Virus record (IMG/VR): IMGVR_UViG_3300037451_000011
Location: 1 to 28,290 of that record
Reading direction: 5' to 3' (one strand)
DNA from: a virus
DNA length: 28,290 nucleotides
In this document: positions 10,708 to 27,181 of the stretch, in pieces
Layout of the letters: each line of letters opens with the position of its first letter
Numbering within the stretch: position 1 is the stretch's first letter
Translations under genes and position numbers: made by a program
Notes under the pieces: model-generated
What the model saw: the letters and a program-made list of their open reading frames with translations, nothing else
Databases searched by the model: none
Told to the model about the DNA's origin: nothing

Positions 10708-11039
10708 TACATCACCGCCCTCTGCGCGAGGGGCGCGCCGGTACCGCCGCCCATCTGACCGAGCGCATTGGCGAGCATCTGAGGCCTATTCCCGACCGGC
10801 GGCTGCTGCCCCTGGTTAAGTGGTGGCAGAGATCCCCCTCGAGGAGGCTGCCCGACACCCGGCCGCAGCTGCGCCTCGCCCGGTACAGAGTACCGAGGTT
10901 GCATGTTCGTGATCGGCGCCGATCCCATGACCGGATAACTGGCACCGGGGATGCCGCTAGCTGTGCCCGCGGGCGGGCTGTAGGCCGCCGGTTTCGCGCC
11001 GCCACCGCTCATCCCGGGTCGAAAATTGTTTGCGCCCAT
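10707..11039 (-). CDS. Pro/Gly-rich disordered putative virion protein
   Basis: The 110-residue product starts MGANNFRPGMSGGGAKPAAY and is almost entirely Pro, Gly, Ala and Gln, ending in GGGTGAPLAQRAVM. No family is recognised. It overlaps the C-terminal end of the GNAT gene by 83 bases in another frame. The ATG has AGGGCGG four bases upstream, which supports it. Its stop overlaps the ATG of the S74-domain gene. Disordered composition shared with the downstream proteins suggests a minor structural component. Confidence 0.55.
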   Translation of the reverse strand: MGANNFRPGMSGGGAKPAAYSPPAGTASGIPGASYPVMGSAPITNMQPRYSVPGEAQLRPGVGQPPRGGSLPPLNQGQQPPVGNRPQMLANALGQMGGGTGAPLAQRAVM

Positions 11040-11475
11040 GAAACCGCCCTACGTTGAGGAATCGACACTCCTCGCGGAGCATGCCATAAACGATCAAATC
11101 ATCACCGTTTGGAAGGATTTTGCGCACGAGGCCCTCTCGGACGAACCCTAAGTGCTCATCGAAGCGCTGCGCCGGTAGGTTGCGAGAAGGCACCAGCCCG
11201 GTCACGCGCCTACACCCGAGCTGCTCGAAGGGATATCTGAATCCCTCGCCCAGGAATGACTTGCATAGCCAGCGACGCCCCGGAAGCGCCGCGACGTGCA
11301 TATGGATGTCGGTGCGGGTGTAGTTCTGGTAGATCACGCCGGCCAGTAGTGCGCCAGTCTGGTCCGCGAGACCGATCGCTGTATAGGGTGTCGTACCAAA
11401 CTCGAACACATCGATCTTGGACGCCACCCACTCCGCGACGCGCTTGTCCTGGTTGGCGATAATGAACCTACCCAT
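10957..11475 (-). CDS. GNAT-family N-acetyltransferase
   Basis: The 172-residue product has the beta-alpha layout of GNAT acyltransferases: N-terminal strand MGRFIIANQDKRV, strands around GALLAGVIYQNYT and DIHMHVAALP, a helix (GEGFRYPFEQLGC), then RRVTGLVPSRNLPAQRFDEHLGF and REGLVRKIL...DLIVYGMLREECRFL, which is the typical C-terminal region with the NLPAQRFxExLGF helix. GNATs transfer an acetyl group from acetyl-CoA to an amine. The classic glycine-rich CoA loop is not obvious. Similar GNATs occur within tail/virion modules of many proteobacterial phages; the substrate is unknown. The last 25 or so residues, beyond the usual end, overlap the next gene. Confidence 0.75.
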   Translation of the reverse strand: MGRFIIANQDKRVAEWVASKIDVFEFGTTPYTAIGLADQTGALLAGVIYQNYTRTDIHMHVAALPGRRWLCKSFLGEGFRYPFEQLGCRRVTGLVPSRNLPAQRFDEHLGFVREGLVRKILPNGDDLIVYGMLREECRFLNVGRFHGRKQFSTRDERWRRETGGLQPARGHS

Positions 11476-14089: not shown

Positions 14090-14937
14090 CAGGCATCTTC
14101 CTTTTCCTCAGCGCTCTCAACGATCTCCCGGGTGCGCTTCGAGATCTTCACGGAGGCTGTCTTCAGCGGCTGAGGCGCGGGAGGCGCGGCCGCCTGCATC
14201 ATCGGCGCCTGTGCCCGCATACCCTGCGCAAACTGCGCCTGCATGTTCACGATGGTCGCCTCGAGCTGCTTGATCTTCTCATCCTGCAGAGCGACCTTTT
14301 CCTCTGCCCGTGACGCCTTGGCTTGCTCGCTGGCGACGATCTTGTTGCGCGTGCGCTCGTCGATCGCGGCCCGCGCCAGGTCGCGGTACTTGCGGCCGCC
14401 CATGATGGCGCCGGCATTGGCGTCTGACAGCGCGGCGAGTGCCTCAACCGTGGGGATGCTGAGGAGCTTGAGGGATTCGGCGTACGATCGCGTGACGACG
14501 CCCCACTCCTCGATCGGCCAGCCATCATCGGCTTTCTCGCCGCGGCGCATGAACCGCGCCCAGGCATTGGGGTACTTCGCGGTGTCGGGCCGATCACCGT
14601 TCGGACACTGCTGTAGCACCTCCCACGTCGTGTGATATTCACCCGAATCGGGATCTATCGCGGTGTCATACTCGATGCCGGACGCCAGCGTATCCCACAC
14701 GGTCTTGGAGTTGCCCGGCGCCACGATGCGCACCCAAATGCGGTCCTGGAAGATGGGAAAGCCCATGCTCTCCGTCAGGTATTCCATCGGATATGGCTTG
14801 ATGTAGAACTCAACAATCAACTCTCCGTCGAGCCCCGCTCCGCCCTCTCCCGAACGGCCATAGAGGACACGGCTCGAGTCCGACTTCGGGCTTTCGAGCA
14901 TGCGCGGGGGTGCGAACTGCGGCATATCGAGACTCAT
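14089..14937 (-). CDS. Hypothetical virion-module protein with C-terminal coiled coil
   Basis: The 282-residue product starts MSLDMPQFAPPRM at the ATG 14935-14937, which has GGAG nine bases upstream and overlaps the preceding stop; the frame opens 15 bases earlier. The first half is a mixed globular domain rich in Trp and Tyr (VEFYIKPYPMEYL; WARFMRRGEKADDGW). The second half is a long coiled coil (VASEQAKASRAEEKVALQDE then IKQLEATIVNMQAQF) and a Pro/Ala-rich tail. I do not recognise it as an enzyme. Its place between capsid and connector genes suggests a structural or assembly protein. Confidence 0.6.
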   Translation of the reverse strand: MSLDMPQFAPPRMLESPKSDSSRVLYGRSGEGGAGLDGELIVEFYIKPYPMEYLTESMGFPIFQDRIWVRIVAPGNSKTVWDTLASGIEYDTAIDPDSGEYHTTWEVLQQCPNGDRPDTAKYPNAWARFMRRGEKADDGWPIEEWGVVTRSYAESLKLLSIPTVEALAALSDANAGAIMGGRKYRDLARAAIDERTRNKIVASEQAKASRAEEKVALQDEKIKQLEATIVNMQAQFAQGMRAQAPMMQAAAPPAPQPLKTASVKISKRTREIVESAEEKEDA

Positions 14938-16877
14938 AGTGATTTTCTCCAACAGAAGTTTGCGCCGACCTCGACCTCACCAAACACTTCCTCGACCGCT
15001 CGCTTGACGCCCCATTGGGGATAGTCCGTGTTGTCATAGTCGTGGCCGGATATGAAGCCGCCCGGTTTGATCTTCGGTAGCCAAGCCTTGATATCCGCCA
15101 GGCAACACTCGTAAGAGTGATCAGCGTCAATAAAGACGAAGTCCAGTGACTCATCGGGCACCTTTGAGGCGACCGCCAATGACGTCGACCTCATAATCAG
15201 GGCACGCTGTCCGGCGAAGCGCACGGCCTTGACGGTCGATTCGTAGTAATGGTCCTGCTCGTGCTGGTTGAGCGATCCATGGAACTCGCCGAGTCCTTCT
15301 TCGCCATTGCCCGGAGCCCACGGGTCGACCATCAGGAGTTTCATGTCGGGACGATTCAGCAATAGACGCTGGGAGAGCGCACCGGTGAACACACCTATTT
15401 CCGCGCCCTGTGGGTGCGATATATCCTTAAGCCAAGACAGAATCTGCTGGGCGCGCTCGTCGACCGATGGCGGCTTCAGCAAGGAGGCAATGTGCGGGAT
15501 CAGGCCATCACCGAAGACGCGAATGACGCAGCCCTTCTCGAGAAGGAGCGGGACATGCTCTTTGAAGTCCTCCGCTTGAGTGACCATCCAGGGTGCGCAG
15601 CGGAATGAGCGTCCACCGACGCGCACGTCGAGCGTCTTCTCACCGTCGTTGAGAGACTGAGGGTAGGCGTGATGGTGCGCGCCGTCGTCGTAGCTCGAGT
15701 CGAAGCCGAAGAGGTTGATATGGCGGTGGCCGAGCATGTAGGCGAGGACAATGGCCTTCATACCGACCGTGGTGCCGCCGCCTATGCTAGGCACGTCGGC
15801 TTTGTCGAGTAGAGGTTGATACGATGTCATGGCTGCGTGCCAACAGACAAGATCGTCACCAGCCCACTGCAGAACGCCAGGATGACATTGCGAGGCGTAG
15901 TACTTGGGTATGGCGTCTCCCATATGCACGAAGTTCATCATCTCAATGCGCGCATCTAACATTATATGCGCATCTTCACGAATGCCATTCTGTCGAAGGA
16001 ATTCATGGGCGCCATTCGTAGCGTAGACCTTCGCACCGGACATCTGCATGCCGCGGATGTAGAATAGATTCGTCTCGAGACTCGGGCCACCGCCAACGAT
16101 GATTGCGGTACGCGTGTCATTGCCAGCCTTTACCCATCTACAGTCTCGCGCCATCGCCGAGAGTACATTAGCGCGTAGCTGGTCGTCCGGCACGTTGGAT
16201 TGCACGATCCACTCGATCGCAGAGCCGCCCCCTACTTTCCAGACTTCCGGAACCCAACCAGAAGTGACCTCATGGGGCCGGGGGTGGCCGTGGAAGAATA
16301 CGACCGAGGTGCCGCGTGGAATCTGGGTGCGGCAGTCAACCTTGAAGCTACGGAATTTGCCGGGGAAGATGTCTTGCCATAGGTCAATTGGCCAATTCCA
16401 CCCTTGTGAAATACATTGTTCAAACCATTCCTGATCTCCTCCCGATGGCAAAGGGCATCCTTGTTGATACCATCTCTGCCAAAAAAGATGGGTACAATTC
16501 AGAGATTCCCACGCCATTACACTGGATTGAAGCCCATTAGGACGGTATGCATCCCTAAGAATGGCAAACGGACCATTATATCGCGCAATCTCATCCAGAG
16601 GACCCGTGATGACCGTATCCAGATCGAAGTACAACACCCTCTCGCCCGGAGGAAATGTATCGCTGCAGAACAAGTACATCTTGTTCCACCACCCCTCCAG
16701 TCCCTCGGGCAGAGGCCTGGCTTTGATACCAGTCTCTAGCCCGATAGGGTCATCCGTGAAACAGGTAAAGTCTCCTGAAAATCCCGCAGGTAGATTCCGC
16801 CGCACCATGTCAAACAGGGTGTTGACATACTTAGGGCCGTACAGCTTGCCCCACTTCACACAACATACCCTTAACAT
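14934..16877 (-). CDS. Three-domain fusion: GT-A glycosyltransferase, DUF115/MptE-like, class I methyltransferase
   Basis: The 647-residue protein has three recognisable parts. Residues 1-210 look like a GT8-type GT-A glycosyltransferase: WWNKMYLF (63-70), the DxD metal motif in YFDLDTVI (D85, D87), GGDQEW (146-151) and a C-terminal HGH (196-198). Residues about 235-470 match the DUF115/MptE-like fold found in flagellin-modifying Maf proteins: IIVGGGPSLETN (259-270), TNGAHEFLRQNGI (287-299) and GFDSSYDDGAHHHAY (391-405). Residues about 475-647 form a SAM-dependent methyltransferase: AEIGVFTGALS (492-502), MVDPW (516-520), DFVFIDADHSYE (579-590), IKPGGFISGHDY (603-614). The product probably builds, caps or methylates a glycan on virion or host surface. 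The target is unknown. GGAG lies seven bases before the ATG, inside the end of the HNH gene. Confidence 0.85.
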   Translation of the reverse strand: MLRVCCVKWGKLYGPKYVNTLFDMVRRNLPAGFSGDFTCFTDDPIGLETGIKARPLPEGLEGWWNKMYLFCSDTFPPGERVLYFDLDTVITGPLDEIARYNGPFAILRDAYRPNGLQSSVMAWESLNCTHLFWQRWYQQGCPLPSGGDQEWFEQCISQGWNWPIDLWQDIFPGKFRSFKVDCRTQIPRGTSVVFFHGHPRPHEVTSGWVPEVWKVGGGSAIEWIVQSNVPDDQLRANVLSAMARDCRWVKAGNDTRTAIIVGGGPSLETNLFYIRGMQMSGAKVYATNGAHEFLRQNGIREDAHIMLDARIEMMNFVHMGDAIPKYYASQCHPGVLQWAGDDLVCWHAAMTSYQPLLDKADVPSIGGGTTVGMKAIVLAYMLGHRHINLFGFDSSYDDGAHHHAYPQSLNDGEKTLDVRVGGRSFRCAPWMVTQAEDFKEHVPLLLEKGCVIRVFGDGLIPHIASLLKPPSVDERAQQILSWLKDISHPQGAEIGVFTGALSQRLLLNRPDMKLLMVDPWAPGNGEEGLGEFHGSLNQHEQDHYYESTVKAVRFAGQRALIMRSTSLAVASKVPDESLDFVFIDADHSYECCLADIKAWLPKIKPGGFISGHDYDNTDYPQWGVKRAVEEVFGEVEVGANFCWRKSL

Positions 16878-18113: not shown

Positions 18114-19097
18114 TTACGCGGCCAACAGGCCCTGGAGGAAGCGATTCGACGTGGTCATGTTGCCGGCGAAGCCGACGAGCTTAACCATCGCATCCTGGTT
18201 GACCGCAAAACGCTCGTCCCCGAGGGGCGAAAAGTTTCGATCCTGATGGGGGCGGAAGAATATGTACTTCGTGTTCAGGAAGAACATTGTGTTAGTAGGA
18301 GCGCCGCCACCTAAGCCGCCGTCCAGAACCACGTCGCAGTTCATATACTTCAAGGTCTGGAAGCCGAGCTCGGCCAGATCCTCATCGCCGACACGCTGCA
18401 GGGCCTGCATACTCTCCAGGTAGTAGCGGTAGAAGTTGTTGTCGGCAACGATCAGATCCGGCGCATCGGCGCCGCGCACCAACTGTAGGTAGACGCGGTT
18501 CATGTAGGTCTGGATGGTGGCCGTCGAGACAGCGGCGCCGCCCGTGGTCAAGCCGCTGAAGAATACGTTGCGCCAGAACTGCCACACTGACGGATCAATA
18601 CCGCCCACTATCCCGGAAGAAGGCGTCGCGGATACCAACAGCTGAAGGCCACCAATCTGCCGTCCGCCATCCGCAGTGCCGTTTGAATAGATGTCTAGGG
18701 CGACGTTGTTGGTGAGAGTCTGCTCGGCGTTCTCGATGCGCCCTTCCAACAGGTCTATAATCGCCTCTTCGCCGGAGTTCTGTAGCATCTCGAGGCCCGA
18801 GATGGAGACGGCGACCGCGGCCTGGGCATAGTTGTACTCGGCTCCGGTGAAGACATCAGACGGGCTGATGTTGAGGGCCTCGTACCCGGAGTATCGCTTG
18901 TAGGTGCCGTTTTCCTGGTAGTTGAGTTCCTGGACGATGGTTCGACCACCGGAAACAGGTTTGACCCGGCCGCGCGCTCTCAATCGATAGAGCAGAGCAT
19001 TGTTTTTCGTGACGTTGTCGGCCAACTTACCCGTGCGATTGCGCAGGGTCGTGGTCACGATTTCCGTCATCGTGGCTGAAGGATTGATAAGTGCCAT
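18114..19097 (-). CDS. Major capsid protein
   Basis: The 327-residue product has the features of an HK97-fold capsid subunit of podoviral type: N-terminal MALINPSATMTEIVTTTLRN, a region with SGGRTIVQELNYQENGTYKR and YSGYEALNISPSDVFTGAEY that looks like the E-loop, a long spine helix (EEAIIDLLEGRIENAEQTLTN), and C-terminal A-domain strands (PDLIVADNNFYRYYLESMQA; NTMFFLNTKYIFFRP). Length is in the normal range for capsid proteins without a prohead protease domain. It follows a scaffold gene with a 19-base gap and has GGGAG five bases before the ATG. It should form the T-number shell around the packaged genome. Confidence 0.9.
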   Translation of the reverse strand: MALINPSATMTEIVTTTLRNRTGKLADNVTKNNALLYRLRARGRVKPVSGGRTIVQELNYQENGTYKRYSGYEALNISPSDVFTGAEYNYAQAAVAVSISGLEMLQNSGEEAIIDLLEGRIENAEQTLTNNVALDIYSNGTADGGRQIGGLQLLVSATPSSGIVGGIDPSVWQFWRNVFFSGLTTGGAAVSTATIQTYMNRVYLQLVRGADAPDLIVADNNFYRYYLESMQALQRVGDEDLAELGFQTLKYMNCDVVLDGGLGGGAPTNTMFFLNTKYIFFRPHQDRNFSPLGDERFAVNQDAMVKLVGFAGNMTTSNRFLQGLLAA

Positions 19098-21337: not shown

Positions 21338-23887
21338 TCACTCTTTGGCATGTCCATTGGCCTTCGGCATCGACTTCTCGTGCTGCCTCTGTTTCTCCCC
21401 CTCCTGGGCCTGGTGGTGAAGGTCCTGGTCGTGCTGCTCGCCCTGGTGATCGAGGTCCATGCGCTTCTCGTTCAGCTTCACATGCGCCTCCATCTGGGCA
21501 ATATGGATCTTCGCTACGACCTCGAACTGCACCTTTTCAGCCTCGAAGCGATTCTTCATCTCCTGGATCTGCATGTCGCTTGATGCTTTCAGCTGAGCCT
21601 TATGTGCCTCAAGATTGGCCTGCATCTGCAAATCGTGGTCAGCGCGGACCTGCTCCATCTGATTCTTGACCGATTCCTGCTGGGCCTCTGCTTGCTGCTT
21701 GGCCTGGGCGATCTGCGCGTCCAGCTTGGCTTGCTGCGCGGCGATGGTGAGCTTGACTTGCCCTTCGGCCATCGCCTTCTGCACCTCTGGCGGAGGCCCC
21801 TTGGGCTGGCTGGCCGACTTCTGCAGCGCGTCCATGGCGTCCTCGAAGGCCTGCTCGATGGGGCGCGCCGACTTAAATGACCGGATGGCGAACATCATCA
21901 GCTCGCCGAGCATCGGAATAATCTCCGGCGCAGTGCTACCGGCCATGATGGCCTTGTCGAGGAATCCGCCGACTGCGGTGACGAGCTCGACGCGCGAGTT
22001 CTTCTCGGCGTCGTCGTCCATCCTAATCGTGGAATCTGTCTCGATGTCGAGGCGGAACTCGCGGTGCATCGGGTTCTGCAAGAGCTGCTCGATCTCTTCC
22101 CAGGTGGGCAGCTCCAGTAGGGCCAGTTTCTCGGGACTCTGCGGGGCCTGACCGGGTGCCGTCGACATTCCGCTCGGAGGCGCCCCCGGATGCATCATCC
22201 CCGGCGCCGCCGGAGCACCCTGAGCTGCGCCTGGCGCTGATAGTGGCTGGCCCTGAGGACCTTGCCAGCCCCGTCCTGGCTGAGCGGTTTGTTGAGCTTG
22301 AGTAGCGGCAGCCTGTTGCTGCTGGATGAGTTGCAACTGGAGTTGGAGTTGCTGCTTTTCAACGTTGGTGAGGAGCTTGACTCCGCTGATCTGCTTGAGT
22401 GTGTCGATATCATAGCCTGCGACGATTTCTCCGACGATCCTGATCGTGTCACGCGCGAACCTCTGGACCTCAGTCTGGGCATCTTGGATGCGTAGGATGC
22501 TGAAGTTTCCCTTAATCTCCTGGGCGGTGGCTGTCTCATTTGGATCGCTGAAGCCGCGCACGATGTCGGCAATACCAGTGAGTTGATAGACATCCTCAAT
22601 TAAACTCTGTCTCTGCTCACGCAGCTGAGAGAGGGTCTCGGCGATCTCCTGCAGGGGTAGCAGCTCGAACGAGCCCGCCAGCCCTCCCTTGTCCTTCATC
22701 GCGGCCCAGCCGCTCACCGGAACTAGTTGGTTTTCCACGCCTTCCGAAAGAAGACGATCCAACGCTTCCGCCGACGCATCTCTAACTCCCGCCACTTTGA
22801 GCGCCTTCGAGATAGCCACGATACGAGTCGACAGCTCATCGATCTCGTTCGCCTGATCCTGATAGAAGGTGTAATTCGGTGTCGGTAGCAACTCGTCACT
22901 GAGCGCATTGGCCATCAAGGGCCGAGGGCAGGGGAAGAATCGATGCAGTCCAAGGTCGTCATCCCGCTTGTCGAGCAGCTTCGGGAAGTTCTTCACTAGC
23001 CAGTATCGTTTGCGCTCCTTCTTGTCGTGGACCTCGTAGACCACGGCCTTTTTGCGCGTGATGCGGATCTGAGTATCAGTGAGATTCTTCGGGGACCAGT
23101 CGAGTGGGATCTGCATAATCTCCTCCTCACTCAGATCTGAGAACCGCTCTCGCAGCTCGTCGCGGTCCATGTAGGCGCGCTTCCAAAGCAACCTGACTTC
23201 CTGCCAGGTGCGCGCCCAGGACCAACCCATGTCCTCCCAGGAGACGTAGTCAATGATGGTCTCCTCGTACTTGAGCTGCTCCTCCTGAACCTCGTCCTCC
23301 TGGTCCGAGGTGACGGCCGCGCCCTCGACCTTGGTTTCCTCGTTCTGTTCGCCTGGGTCGGCGCCCTCGTCTTTCGCCGCTGGCGTCTCGGGCTTGTGGA
23401 AGTGCGGCTCGTATCTAACCCAAACACAGGCCATTCCAGGTAGCTCATAGTCCTGGATGGCTAACCTCATCAAATAGAAAAAGTCGTTGACATTATCAAG
23501 GGTGTATTCAATCGACCTCTCCAGGATCTCCGCCGCCGTGCGTCCGATAGGGTCGCGATCCTTGTATCGCCGTTCAACAATCGGCTTAGGATTGCGTGCA
23601 TACAGCGCGGGCAGACGCGTCTGGATATTCGCCCACAGGATGTTATAGCGAGTAATGGCGTCTTCTCGTGGACTGCGCACATCTCGATACTTTTTGAGGA
23701 TCTTTCGGCCTCGACGCAAAAAATTATCGAAGATACGTTCATGGGTGTCGATTTCGTCTTTGAGCCACGCGACGACTGGAGTGAGTTGTAGTCCTGGATG
23801 CGGGTTGGGCGATGCCCACTGATCCTCTGTCCCGCGCTTTTTCAAGCGCTTGGCCGGCGAGCCATCGGGCATGAGAATGCGGGCCAT
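21338..23887 (-). CDS. Portal protein (P22-type, long form)
   Basis: The 849-residue product forms the dodecameric ring through which DNA enters and leaves the head. Portal-type features are FDNFLRRGRKILKKYRD, YNILWANIQTRLPALYARNP and VERRYKD in the N-terminal wing, AIQDYELPGMACVWVRYEP, and the stem region with RLLSEGVENQLVPVSGWAAM, SLIEDVYQLTGIADIVRGFS and NETATAQEIKGNFSILRIQ. After about residue 520 come Gln- and Pro-rich segments and a long C-terminal coiled coil of some 140 residues ending near EKSMPKANGHAKE. That tail resembles the helical barrel of P22-type portals and makes this protein longer than P22's 725 residues. It lies after the terminase module and before the scaffold/capsid genes. 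Confidence 0.92.
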   Translation of the reverse strand: MARILMPDGSPAKRLKKRGTEDQWASPNPHPGLQLTPVVAWLKDEIDTHERIFDNFLRRGRKILKKYRDVRSPREDAITRYNILWANIQTRLPALYARNPKPIVERRYKDRDPIGRTAAEILERSIEYTLDNVNDFFYLMRLAIQDYELPGMACVWVRYEPHFHKPETPAAKDEGADPGEQNEETKVEGAAVTSDQEDEVQEEQLKYEETIIDYVSWEDMGWSWARTWQEVRLLWKRAYMDRDELRERFSDLSEEEIMQIPLDWSPKNLTDTQIRITRKKAVVYEVHDKKERKRYWLVKNFPKLLDKRDDDLGLHRFFPCPRPLMANALSDELLPTPNYTFYQDQANEIDELSTRIVAISKALKVAGVRDASAEALDRLLSEGVENQLVPVSGWAAMKDKGGLAGSFELLPLQEIAETLSQLREQRQSLIEDVYQLTGIADIVRGFSDPNETATAQEIKGNFSILRIQDAQTEVQRFARDTIRIVGEIVAGYDIDTLKQISGVKLLTNVEKQQLQLQLQLIQQQQAAATQAQQTAQPGRGWQGPQGQPLSAPGAAQGAPAAPGMMHPGAPPSGMSTAPGQAPQSPEKLALLELPTWEEIEQLLQNPMHREFRLDIETDSTIRMDDDAEKNSRVELVTAVGGFLDKAIMAGSTAPEIIPMLGELMMFAIRSFKSARPIEQAFEDAMDALQKSASQPKGPPPEVQKAMAEGQVKLTIAAQQAKLDAQIAQAKQQAEAQQESVKNQMEQVRADHDLQMQANLEAHKAQLKASSDMQIQEMKNRFEAEKVQFEVVAKIHIAQMEAHVKLNEKRMDLDHQGEQHDQDLHHQAQEGEKQRQHEKSMPKANGHAKE

Positions 23888-23892
23888 TTACG

Positions 23893-24813
23893 CTACCACA
23901 CGCAGACGACACATAGGCCATTGCCGCCGTTTCCACCGGCGCCAGAGGGCTGTGTCGCAATTGAGCTGCCTCCACCCCCACCCCCGCATCCAATAGCGCC
24001 ATTACCCCCTGCAAATCCTGCGCCGGTTGCACTGGAGGCACCGCCAGCTCCGGCAGATCCGCAGACGTATGCCACATCATTCGTGCCATTTGGGCCGGCA
24101 CCCGCCCCTCCCATAGCTTGGATATCGGTCGATGTGCAGGGGGTATATCCGCCGTTACCGCCATTTTGCGAGACTGGTACTGCTGCTAATCCCGCCCCTG
24201 ACCCACCTCCGGCACCCCCGTAGCCAGCATTGCCACCGGGATTTCCTGCTCCACCTGAGGAACATCCGGCACCCCCCGCCCCTGCAACGAGTCCGCTTGC
24301 TGGAGGAAGTGCTGCTCCCCCGCCCCCGATTGTGCCGCCTCCAGGACCTGCTGCCCCTCCAGAGGATCCTGTAGCCGAGCCGCCTGCTCCTGATATTCCC
24401 GCGCCGCCGCCGCCGCCGCTACTTGAGGCGGACAAACCCCCAACTCCGGCCCCGCCAGCGAAGCCAATGACGAATTGGTCGAATACCGTGTTACCAGATG
24501 GCATCGAACCGGAATTACCATTTCCTCCGGTGACAGATGCGCCGCCCGCACCGCCAGTGGGCACAGTTACTACGCATGTAGCCGGTAGTGCAGCCAACGG
24601 CATCGTCGCTTCCCCGAATAATCCGCCTCCTCCCGCGCCTCCCCCAGAGCATACAGTACCCGGTCCAACGGATGCTCCAGAACCGCCGCCCCCGGCAGGA
24701 CCTATGCAGATGATTCTGGCAAATGTGCCGATGGGATAAGGGTTTATCCAAGTTCCATTGGTGGTGAATGTCTGAACCTGGGTAGGGATTTGAGGAGAAT
24801 ATGTAGTCTCCAT
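23893..24813 (-). CDS. Glycine-rich adhesin/fibre-like protein
   Basis: From the ATG at 24811-24813 the product has about 306 residues. The N-terminus (METTYSPQIPTQVQTFTTNG, then TWINPYPIGTFARIICIGP) is the strand-rich domain that commonly precedes glycine-rich phage proteins. The rest is a long series of Gly-rich blocks with Ser, Ala, Pro and several Cys, ending GNGLCVVCVW. An alternative ATG nine codons upstream (24840) overlaps the previous gene more deeply; the chosen start follows that gene's stop almost directly. It resembles the protein at 3979-4605 in design and may be a second virion adhesin or head/tail decoration. Its position in the head module, far from the fibre gene, is unusual. 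Confidence 0.6.
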   Translation of the reverse strand: METTYSPQIPTQVQTFTTNGTWINPYPIGTFARIICIGPAGGGGSGASVGPGTVCSGGGAGGGGLFGEATMPLAALPATCVVTVPTGGAGGASVTGGNGNSGSMPSGNTVFDQFVIGFAGGAGVGGLSASSSGGGGGAGISGAGGSATGSSGGAAGPGGGTIGGGGAALPPASGLVAGAGGAGCSSGGAGNPGGNAGYGGAGGGSGAGLAAVPVSQNGGNGGYTPCTSTDIQAMGGAGAGPNGTNDVAYVCGSAGAGGASSATGAGFAGGNGAIGCGGGGGGSSIATQPSGAGGNGGNGLCVVCVW

Positions 24814-24814
24814 A

Positions 24815-25135
24815 TCACGATCCCGCGTACGCAGTAACATCTATAATGGCCGTACCGGTCTGGCCGATGAACCTTAAATTTTGTTGGCCATGGGCGGTAT
24901 ATCGTAGTTCCTGACCGATCGCCAGCGGATATCCAATGGCGGCCGTGGGCGCGACACCATCATCGCGCCATCGCACCGCCGCGGTCTCGCATTGGATAAT
25001 GAGCAGCTGAGTGCCCGCAGGAATACCGGCCGCTGTCGCGCTTCCGAAAGTGAGAGAACTAACTAAGGTGCTCGCCGCCAGGGCGCCCGATTGCGCGTAG
25101 CCGAGCGGCGACTCGGCCATGTATCCCTGTTGCAT
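24815..25135 (-). CDS. Conserved phage beta-rich protein, unknown function
   Basis: The 106-residue product contains a pattern recurrent in small proteins of many proteobacterial phages: AAGIPAGTQLLIIQCETAAV, then VRWRDDGVAPTAAIGYPLAI, GQELRYTA and a final strand IIDVTAYAG. These are predicted beta strands of a small jelly-roll-like fold and are usually annotated as hypothetical or structural. It lies one base after the Tad2-like gene and is followed directly by the glycine-rich protein. A minor virion role is the most likely reading. Confidence 0.6.
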   Translation of the reverse strand: MQQGYMAESPLGYAQSGALAASTLVSSLTFGSATAAGIPAGTQLLIIQCETAAVRWRDDGVAPTAAIGYPLAIGQELRYTAHGQQNLRFIGQTGTAIIDVTAYAGS

Positions 25136-25136
25136 G

Positions 25137-25433
25137 TTAGCTGATTACCTGCCAGTCAGTCGCCAGGACATCTACCTGCTCGGGTACCCAGCCGAAATGG
25201 ACGCCATTTCCCGGGACGTATAAAGTCAGGATTGGCGCCACATTGACCACCCCACCGGGCAATGACGCCACAAGAGCCGACAGCGCTGCATTTGTGAAGT
25301 CTTCCGCGGGCACACCAGTGACAGACGCCGTCAAAAACAACTGCCAATTACGACCCTCCGTCACCCAAACGGCTCTCTGCACTACCGAACCTGACTGCAT
25401 GGCCGAGACGGCCTGACTGATGTTCATTGTCAT
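25137..25433 (-). CDS. DUF2829 / Tad2-like protein, candidate anti-Thoeris signal sponge
   Basis: The 98-residue product follows the DUF2829 (Thoeris anti-defence 2-like) layout from end to end: an N-terminal helix with MNISQAVSAMQSG, then VVQRAVWV and WQLFLTAS; a less conserved middle (residues 40-60); APILTLYVPGN; and the signature end FGWVPEQVDVLATDWQVIS. Known Tad2 proteins form tetramers that bind and sequester glycocyclic ADP-ribose signals made by Thoeris, and some also bind cyclic nucleotides of CBASS. Whether this copy binds any signal is not known; the family also contains proteins of unknown function. The ATG overlaps the upstream stop by four bases, so it is translated with the 75-residue gene. 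Confidence 0.75.
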   Translation of the reverse strand: MTMNISQAVSAMQSGSVVQRAVWVTEGRNWQLFLTASVTGVPAEDFTNAALSALVASLPGGVVNVAPILTLYVPGNGVHFGWVPEQVDVLATDWQVIS

Positions 25434-25657
25434 TGAGATTCTCCGGATTGAGTTGCGGTGATTTGAGTGAGGCTTTCATGAGCCTCAGGGGAGAGGCCTA
25501 ACTGGAAGTGGAATAGCGACCATTCAGGGCCGCGTTTTTTGGCTAGGGTCTCGGCACGGGTGCGGGAGAAGACTGACTGAGCACCATCGCGGGTAGTGAT
25601 AAATCGACCCTGGTTGTCGTACTTACCTACCTGCCATTCGACGAGTTCTGTTTTCAT
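25430..25657 (-). CDS. Hypothetical 75-residue protein coupled to Tad2-like gene
   Basis: The protein reads MKTELVEWQVGKYDNQGRFI at the start, then TTRDGAQSVFSRTRAETLAK and SLFHFQLGLSPEAHESLTQI. It appears to be a small alpha/beta protein without Cys or membrane segments. I do not recognise it. GAGG lies five bases before the ATG, and this region is a tandem duplication of about 11 bases. The gene is translationally coupled to the DUF2829 gene, so a related accessory or defence-countering role is possible by association only. Confidence 0.55.
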   Translation of the reverse strand: MKTELVEWQVGKYDNQGRFITTRDGAQSVFSRTRAETLAKKRGPEWSLFHFQLGLSPEAHESLTQITATQSGESQ

Positions 25658-25714: not shown

Positions 25715-27181
25715 TCATATCCTCTCACTCCTCGTCGGCAGTCTCTCTTTCGGAAAGAACACATCATCCGCCGTGAGATCTTGCAGGAATTTCGGCTTCG
25801 GTTTGTCCTCCGCAGCCTTGATCGGCTGCCAAACCTGTCCGATGATCTCGAAGGCGTCAGAGCCGTGGGATGACCAGTCGTGAAAAGGCTCGTCCGACAG
25901 CATCTTACGCTTCTCATCATATGCGAAGTGGTAACTCGATAGAGCGTCTCGCCCCTTCTCGGTAGCATCCTTGTCGAACCAGCAATACTCCAGAGTCTTA
26001 CGCGCGGCGCTGATCTGATCCATCTGGTTGATGGCCGGGATAACATTCATCGAGTATCCCCAGTCATGCATAAGGTCTCCGAATGAGCGGCCGCCGGCAG
26101 CCAGGGTCTTGGCGGCCGTGTCATGTGGGCCATAGTGCTGACCGTACTTGTAATAGGCGCGGTGCCCATGGCCGACCAGAATGTTTTGCCGAGTCACGCG
26201 GCCGCCGGCGAACCCCTTGCGAGGCGCCTCAAGCTTGTGGCCGGCCAGGATCTCGGCGTAGTGCTGAGCGTCCTTGCCGGTATTATGATAGTAATCAATG
26301 ATATGGACTTCATTCCTCGAAATCTGGAAGAACCATATCGCAGTGGCGTCGCTGTATCCTAAATCCCAGGCTGTATGGACCTCGACGGATCTGTCATGAG
26401 GCACCAGGGTGATTCGGCCCTCAGCGTCGAGCTTGCGTAGCTGGCGCGCGTAGATGGCACCCAGGATGGCCGCTTCGAACGAGCATAGGTACTCCTGCTC
26501 GAACATATTCTGGCCCATTTCGTCGCCGTACTCACTGATCAGCTCGGATCGCTCCTCCTCCAACTCGGCCTCGGTGAAGACACTGGTTTCCGTGGCCGGC
26601 AGCACTTGGTGAAACCAGCCCTGCGCGGCCTTGGCAGCCTCTAGGAGTTTGAGTCCGTGGTTCTTGCCGCGCGGAGTGGTGATGAAGATGGCCCAACCCC
26701 CGTTCTCTCTCAATATGGGGCGCATATAGGCCCAGGCGTGGGGATCAGCCAGAGCCCATTCGGAAAATACGATACCAACTGGTGGAGATCCAACCAGCGC
26801 GTTGTAGTTATCACTGCCGACCACCTGCCAGAACGAGCCGTTGTGCAGCTCGATCTTCATCTCGTTGTTGAGAACTCGCTTGCACAGGATAGGGGGAAAG
26901 GCCTCATGTATGCGGCGCTTGCCGGTGTGTGGGTTGATGGCATCCCAGATGGCTTTACGCGCCTGCTCAGCCTGGGGAAGCATGTGCCAGTAGTTGCCAA
27001 CGCGCTGGTGAGCGGCGTAACAGGCCCAGTGCATGGCCACGTCATCTTTGCCGGCCCGACGGTGCCAGACGGCATAGGCGCGTTTACCGCCGGCGGCGAG
27101 GTAGTTCCAGAGCAGGTCCTGGTGAGGCTCGGTGTACCAGGACCCGAAGACGTCGAACTCAGTGAGTGTGGACTGTTCCAT
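25715..27181 (-). CDS. terL: Terminase large subunit
   Basis: The 488-residue product is the packaging motor ATPase plus nuclease. The Walker A motif is WHRRAGKDD (39-47); Walker B is GIVFSEWA (136-143) with catalytic Glu141; the coupling motif is TTPRGKNH (168-175). The nuclease half begins near HTAWDLGYSDATAIWFF (269-285), where Asp273 and Asp278 are the expected metal ligands; later conserved blocks include EIIGQVWQPI. Length and motif spacing match podoviral large terminases. It starts 12 bases after the small-subunit stop. Together with the portal it translocates DNA into the prohead. Confidence 0.95.
   Translation of the reverse strand: MEQSTLTEFDVFGSWYTEPHQDLLWNYLAAGGKRAYAVWHRRAGKDDVAMHWACYAAHQRVGNYWHMLPQAEQARKAIWDAINPHTGKRRIHEAFPPILCKRVLNNEMKIELHNGSFWQVVGSDNYNALVGSPPVGIVFSEWALADPHAWAYMRPILRENGGWAIFITTPRGKNHGLKLLEAAKAAQGWFHQVLPATETSVFTEAELEEERSELISEYGDEMGQNMFEQEYLCSFEAAILGAIYARQLRKLDAEGRITLVPHDRSVEVHTAWDLGYSDATAIWFFQISRNEVHIIDYYHNTGKDAQHYAEILAGHKLEAPRKGFAGGRVTRQNILVGHGHRAYYKYGQHYGPHDTAAKTLAAGGRSFGDLMHDWGYSMNVIPAINQMDQISAARKTLEYCWFDKDATEKGRDALSSYHFAYDEKRKMLSDEPFHDWSSHGSDAFEIIGQVWQPIKAAEDKPKPKFLQDLTADDVFFPKERLPTRSERI

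Follow-up and report, generated by a model that had tools for sequence, protein, structure and literature searches.

A divergent Tad2-like gene between the terminase and portal genes of a virus, with a conserved, rewritten predicted ligand pocket

The Tad2-like gene and its neighbors

The window, that is, the whole 28,290-nucleotide stretch of viral DNA analyzed here, carries a Tad2-like (PF11195) gene of 98 aa on the minus strand (25137-25433), which is read from an ATG start as 25433-25137 and is identified by a match to the full PF11195 profile, an AlphaFold2 model, and superposition on Tad2 structures. The earlier note on this DNA had described a 98-residue ORF at 25137-25433, with no strand given, and had placed it between terminase and portal; both statements hold, with the terminase large subunit (TerL) gene at 25715-27181 (minus strand; phrog_2, E=2.4e-20) and the portal protein gene at 21338-23887 (minus strand; phrog_12082, E=9e-179). 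A GGAG at 25441-25444 (minus strand), read from the sequence 7 nt before the ATG, is the probable ribosome-binding site. The ATG overlaps by 4 bp (ATGA, 25430-25433) the end of an upstream 75-aa gene of unassigned function (25430-25657, minus strand), for which Pfam-A and PHROGs searches gave no family match and whose product yields a poor model when folded from the single sequence without an alignment (pLDDT 54.6). Two genes separate the Tad2-like gene from the portal gene. Directly downstream, after a gap of 1 nt, lies a 106-aa gene of unassigned function (24815-25135, minus strand), and beyond it a gene for a Gly-rich 315-aa protein (23893-24840, minus strand), which is probably a virion or fiber component, judging from its composition and from weak tail-protein matches to PF21722 and phrog_863, both below significance. 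The major head protein gene (18114-19097) lies beyond the portal gene on the same strand as the Tad2-like gene. A promoter and terminator scan gave nothing above shuffled sequences, and a promoter belonging to the Tad2-like gene itself is neither shown nor excluded. Elsewhere on the minus strand of the window, the structural gene block includes a gene for a 647-aa protein (14934-16877) that matches a glycosyltransferase at its N-terminus and a DNA-methyltransferase family at its C-terminus, and a gene among the tail genes (10957-11475) matches an acyl-CoA N-acyltransferase family (phrog_4470, E=2.4e-44).

Family membership and predicted fold

The PF11195 profile search that the earlier note had proposed gave a significant match to PF11195 (Tad2-like, DUF2829) in Pfam-A, with 46.3 bits (E=6.4e-12) against a curated cutoff of 25 bits. 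The match spans profile positions 1 to 73 of 73, so that the full-length DUF2829 pattern, which the note had read from the sequence alone and which included the FGWVPEQVDVLATDWQVI end (residues 80-97), is recovered. The score is weaker than those of typical members with the same model (about 70-98 bits), and the likelihood of a chance match is remote. In a phmmer search of PDB sequences, the best sequence match was SPO1 Tad2 (E=2e-5), and two PHROGs families of unknown function match the same residues as PF11195. The AlphaFold2 model, built on an alignment of 44 sequences, has a mean pLDDT of 96.7 and a pTM of 0.80. A Foldseek search of the PDB with this model returned 24 chains at E<=0.001, all of them Tad2/AcrIIA7, and nothing else convincing. 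By sequence profile and predicted fold, the 98-aa protein is thus a genuine but divergent Tad2-family member, with both family and fold firmly assigned.

According to PDB titles, characterized Tad2 proteins hold different ligands on one fold, namely, gcADPR in SPO1 Tad2, His-ADPR in ModTad2, and cGG in SptTad2; they are reviewed as sequestering gcADPR or cyclic dinucleotides (PMC12043709). In VIA-align superpositions, the model is closest to SptTad2 in its cGG complex (8wjd; Z 12.9, 95 residues, 1.9 Å) and HgmTad2/AcrIIA7 (8kbi-8kbm; Z 12.8), over 95 residues at 1.9 to 2.2 Å for the two proteins together, followed by ModTad2 with His-ADPR (9eib; Z 12.2) and SPO1 Tad2 gp34.65 with gcADPR (8sme-8smg; Z 11.1-11.8). 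The next unrelated PDB entry scores Z 4.7, compared with Z 11-13 for the Tad2 matches. SptTad2 and HgmTad2 share with the window protein a long insertion (residues 36-66; 25236-25328, minus strand), which aligns in the superposition with their beta2-beta5 insertion, a feature linked in the review to cyclic dinucleotide binding (PMC12043709); however, they are only about 20% identical to it, and their GWNGKGM and SQTD elements are replaced in it. SPO1 Tad2 resembles the window protein in its PF11195 match but has no long insertion, has the canonical pocket loop, and is encoded among small accessory genes. ModTad2, also of the PF11195 fold, differs in its canonical RxGWNGKGM loop and is 21-23% identical.

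Several other matches touch on the family. PF11195 proteins in which a second N-terminal stretch (motif GYISWSPADVFE) is fused to the Tad2 domain occur at L019:3770-4270 and L021:3851-4294, and phrog_872 and phrog_1048 match the Tad2 part only with their C-terminal ends. The model also resembles, at Z 3.0-4.7 over about 60-65 residues with 15-21% identity, one domain of mitoribosomal small-subunit proteins from several lineages (e.g., 5aj3_j, residues 60-143); this weak structural match was not borne out when the family alignment was used for a sequence profile search.

Rewritten pocket elements

Two short elements of the protein depart from the family. The beta1-beta2 loop (residues 21-30, AVWVTEGRNW; 25344-25373, minus strand), delimited by the family alignment and DSSP of the model and conserved in a second phage (L004), has a two-residue insertion and replaces the family GWNGKGM. 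Of the 79 family members compared, 78 carry RxGW[ND]G and then xx[MLQ], or something close to it; the 98-aa protein reads RAVWVTEGRNW. In the beta4-alpha3 region (residues 81-89, GWVPEQVDV; 25167-25193, minus strand), located from the family alignment, the W[LVA][AP]SQ[TS]D of nearly all members appears as WVPEQVD (S85E and T/S87V). The RxGW[ND]Gxx loop and SQ[TS]D are common in PF11195 members rather than a curated requirement of the family, and the replaced residues are near-invariant even in distant members (G22 in 41 of 42, the N in 41 of 42, and S85 in 42 of 42). Among 23 positions common to SPO1 Tad2, ModTad2, SptTad2, and HgmTad2, 11 are kept here, including R20, W23, G27, W82, D88, D93, and W94, and 12 are changed, among them the pocket-loop residues G, N, K, M, and F and the first residue (S) of SQ[TS]D.

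The pocket for ADPR-type ligands is made up of the beta1-beta2 and beta3-beta4 loops, beta4, the beta4-alpha3 loop, and alpha3 (PMC12043709), and on this basis both rewritten elements belong to it. Since near-invariant pocket positions are rewritten, it is not to be assumed that the protein binds gcADPR, His-ADPR, or a cyclic dinucleotide. The preferred ligand probably differs from that of every characterized Tad2, because both pocket-lining elements differ from those of every characterized Tad2.

A lineage shared with an unrelated phage

A 39.8-kb contig (L003) has the gene order of the window and an identical Tad2 protein, with 1 nucleotide difference. Both variant elements recur nearly unchanged in L004, an unrelated phage whose Tad2 protein is 70% identical; among the window genes compared (over 10 kb of L004), Tad2 alone is in common. 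Between the window and L004 genes, dN is 0.27 and dS is about 3 (saturated), and 38 of 67 identical residues are encoded by different codons; from these comparisons, the Tad2-like gene is under strong purifying selection in both. The variant loops, picked after the alignment was seen, are more conserved between the two than the rest of the protein (20/22 versus 67/96; p about 0.01). Because the loops are the better conserved part, the site looks maintained and re-specialized rather than decaying, as far as two independent sequences can indicate.

In a tree of 48 members, the window and L004 proteins form a pair with 100/99 support, and the stem leading to this pair measures 3.0 changes per column. 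The lineage is placed weakly, beside another long branch, and no origin is claimed for it on that account. Protein, alignment, and loop-DNA-pattern searches of viral contigs found no members other than L004 and the window group itself, which comprises the window and 2 further contigs, and none was found in bacterial genome contigs. As for a host, the best bacterial match, a 45% identical TerL in a Phenylobacterium MAG, was too distant to name one. Near its Tad2 gene, L004 also encodes an aspartyl/asparaginyl beta-hydroxylase domain protein (L004:6017-6628; PF05118, 57.7 bits).

A variable slot between TerL and portal

Close relatives of the window virus differ in what they carry between TerL and portal. 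The 75-aa gene is kept in L007 (TerL 92% and portal 96% identical), L008 (81% and 86%), L009 (78% and 82%), and L010 (TerL 77%), and no PF11195 match is present anywhere in the records L007 to L011 (TerL 73-92% identical), of which the L007 to L010 fragments span the region from TerL to portal. The TerL-portal interval differs in each of L007 to L010, whose slots contain instead a 356-aa protein, a DUF4329/JAB-like 182-aa protein, a 161-aa protein, and a 72-aa ORF; L009 has a 66% identical relative of the 106-aa gene, there without Tad2. Since the 75-aa gene persists without Tad2 in L007 to L010, whose TerL is 77-92% identical, the Tad2-like gene is, in terms of gene content, an exchangeable accessory (moron) gene, and it is probably not structural. 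The same observation bears on the coupling to the 75-aa gene pointed out in the earlier note: the overlap does not represent a fixed partnership, because relatives keep the 75-aa gene without Tad2. That Tad2 is the only compared gene shared with L004 and is missing from the relatives is what is expected of a mobile counter-defense gene. The 182-aa slot protein of L008 (L008:7474-8022) has a weak DUF4329/Prok-JAB match (25.0 bits versus a cutoff of 28.6) and is a candidate for another accessory or counter-defense gene in the same slot.

Genomic position of Tad2-like genes

The position of the gene in the late operon, which the earlier note contrasted with an early anti-defense island, turns out to be not unusual but common in the family. 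Fifty longer viral contigs carrying PF11195 genes were surveyed; the sample was ranked by resemblance to the 98-aa protein and includes a few near-duplicates. TerL was found in 25 of them, and in 14 of these 25 it is encoded on the same strand as the PF11195 gene and no more than 5 kb away (5.6 expected under a uniform gene position; p about 1.5e-4); with a limit of 3 kb, the count is 9 (3.4 expected; p about 0.004). Klebsiella phage IME346 (Jedunavirus) has the identical order of TerL, DUF2829, and portal (annotated DUF1073) with 4-bp overlaps, although the phage is unrelated and its DUF2829 protein has the canonical RAGWNGKGM and SQTD. Tad2-like genes also lie between head morphogenesis and scaffold genes in SpaA1, just upstream of a coil-containing protein and the MCP in Vibrio 1.127.O, between lysis and TerS-TerL genes in Kapi1, before TerS-TerL in QDWS595, between the MCP and tail tubular A in NKA196, and between TerL and the MCP in Vibrio 1.205.O. 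In Sinorhizobium phage AP-20-A, the Tad2-like protein P015, of putative function and closest to ModTad2 (50.5%), is encoded in the late module between a predicted holin (p014) and autolysin (p016) (PMC13299392). Accessory-region Tad2-like genes are found in SPO1, Listeria LP-083-2 (in a tRNA cluster), and PaBG. As Tad2-like genes often stand beside terminase and head genes, position alone indicates neither early or late anti-defense nor a structural role. Read from its sequence, the unusual feature of the window gene is its conserved rewritten pocket and not its position.

Possible functions during infection

The explanation we favor, and consider fairly likely, is that the gene encodes a divergent Tad2-type sponge with an altered ligand preference, carried as an exchangeable accessory gene of the late operon. 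Situated in the variable TerL-portal slot, it would be translated along with the rest of the late operon, and its product would most likely assemble into a tetramer of the Tad2 type. By sequestering an immune nucleotide, either a cyclic dinucleotide or a TIR-derived molecule of the ADPR type, this tetramer would delay abortive infection. The major head protein of a phage can set off Thoeris (PMC12043709), and late expression would fit such a trigger, in that co-production with the head genes would make the sponge present when capsid-triggered signaling begins.

The protein could also be a late-acting canonical Tad2 that binds the usual ligands (gcADPR, His-ADPR, or a cyclic dinucleotide) through other side chains, the loop changes being neutral for specificity. 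Ligands already vary among characterized Tad2 proteins that share this fold, and the window protein keeps R20, W23, G27, W82, D88, D93, and W94 together with the dinucleotide-associated insertion; the near-invariance of the replaced G22, N, and S85 in distant members nevertheless makes this rather unlikely. The Tad2 fold might instead have been taken over for a virion component that is packaged, or ejected with the DNA, or for a helper of packaging or assembly. This idea was raised in part by the earlier note, and the gene does lie between TerL and portal; in the unrelated phages NKA196 and SpaA1, Tad2-like genes are flanked by virion or head genes, and in Momine by two large genes read as coding for internal virion proteins. 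We regard it as improbable, in view of the absence of the gene from relatives with TerL 77-92% identical, the occurrence of the same lineage in L004, where no other window gene was detected, and neighbors that vary between phages. Foldseek and VIA-align comparisons of the model with the PDB gave no virion-protein fold, and a literature search on the presence of the Tad2-like protein in virions found nothing relevant. The least probable possibility is a decaying or repurposed remnant that binds no signal and may bind, for example, protein or nucleic acid: the long stem of the lineage and the lost motif residues would suit it, but strong purifying selection, loops conserved between two phages, and a model of such high pLDDT would not.

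Within the favored reading of a sponge with an altered ligand preference, a more specific and rather doubtful version is that the pocket shared by the window and L004 proteins has been rebuilt for an immune nucleotide outside gcADPR, cADPR, His-ADPR, and cyclic dinucleotides; if true, it would point to an unrecognized immune signal in the hosts of this lineage. With its intact predicted fold and conserved rewritten pocket, the protein is a candidate for use as a small, inexpensive probe of another signal, because the immune nucleotide held on this one fold varies from one Tad2 protein to another. In Pectobacterium phage Momine, the Tad2-like gene (L017:4001-4276) lies between genes for late proteins of 899 aa and 1263 aa, the latter annotated diguanylate cyclase/phosphodiesterase, and both are probably internal virion proteins. 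If they are ejected, Momine would be a better test of a virion-delivered sponge than the window gene.
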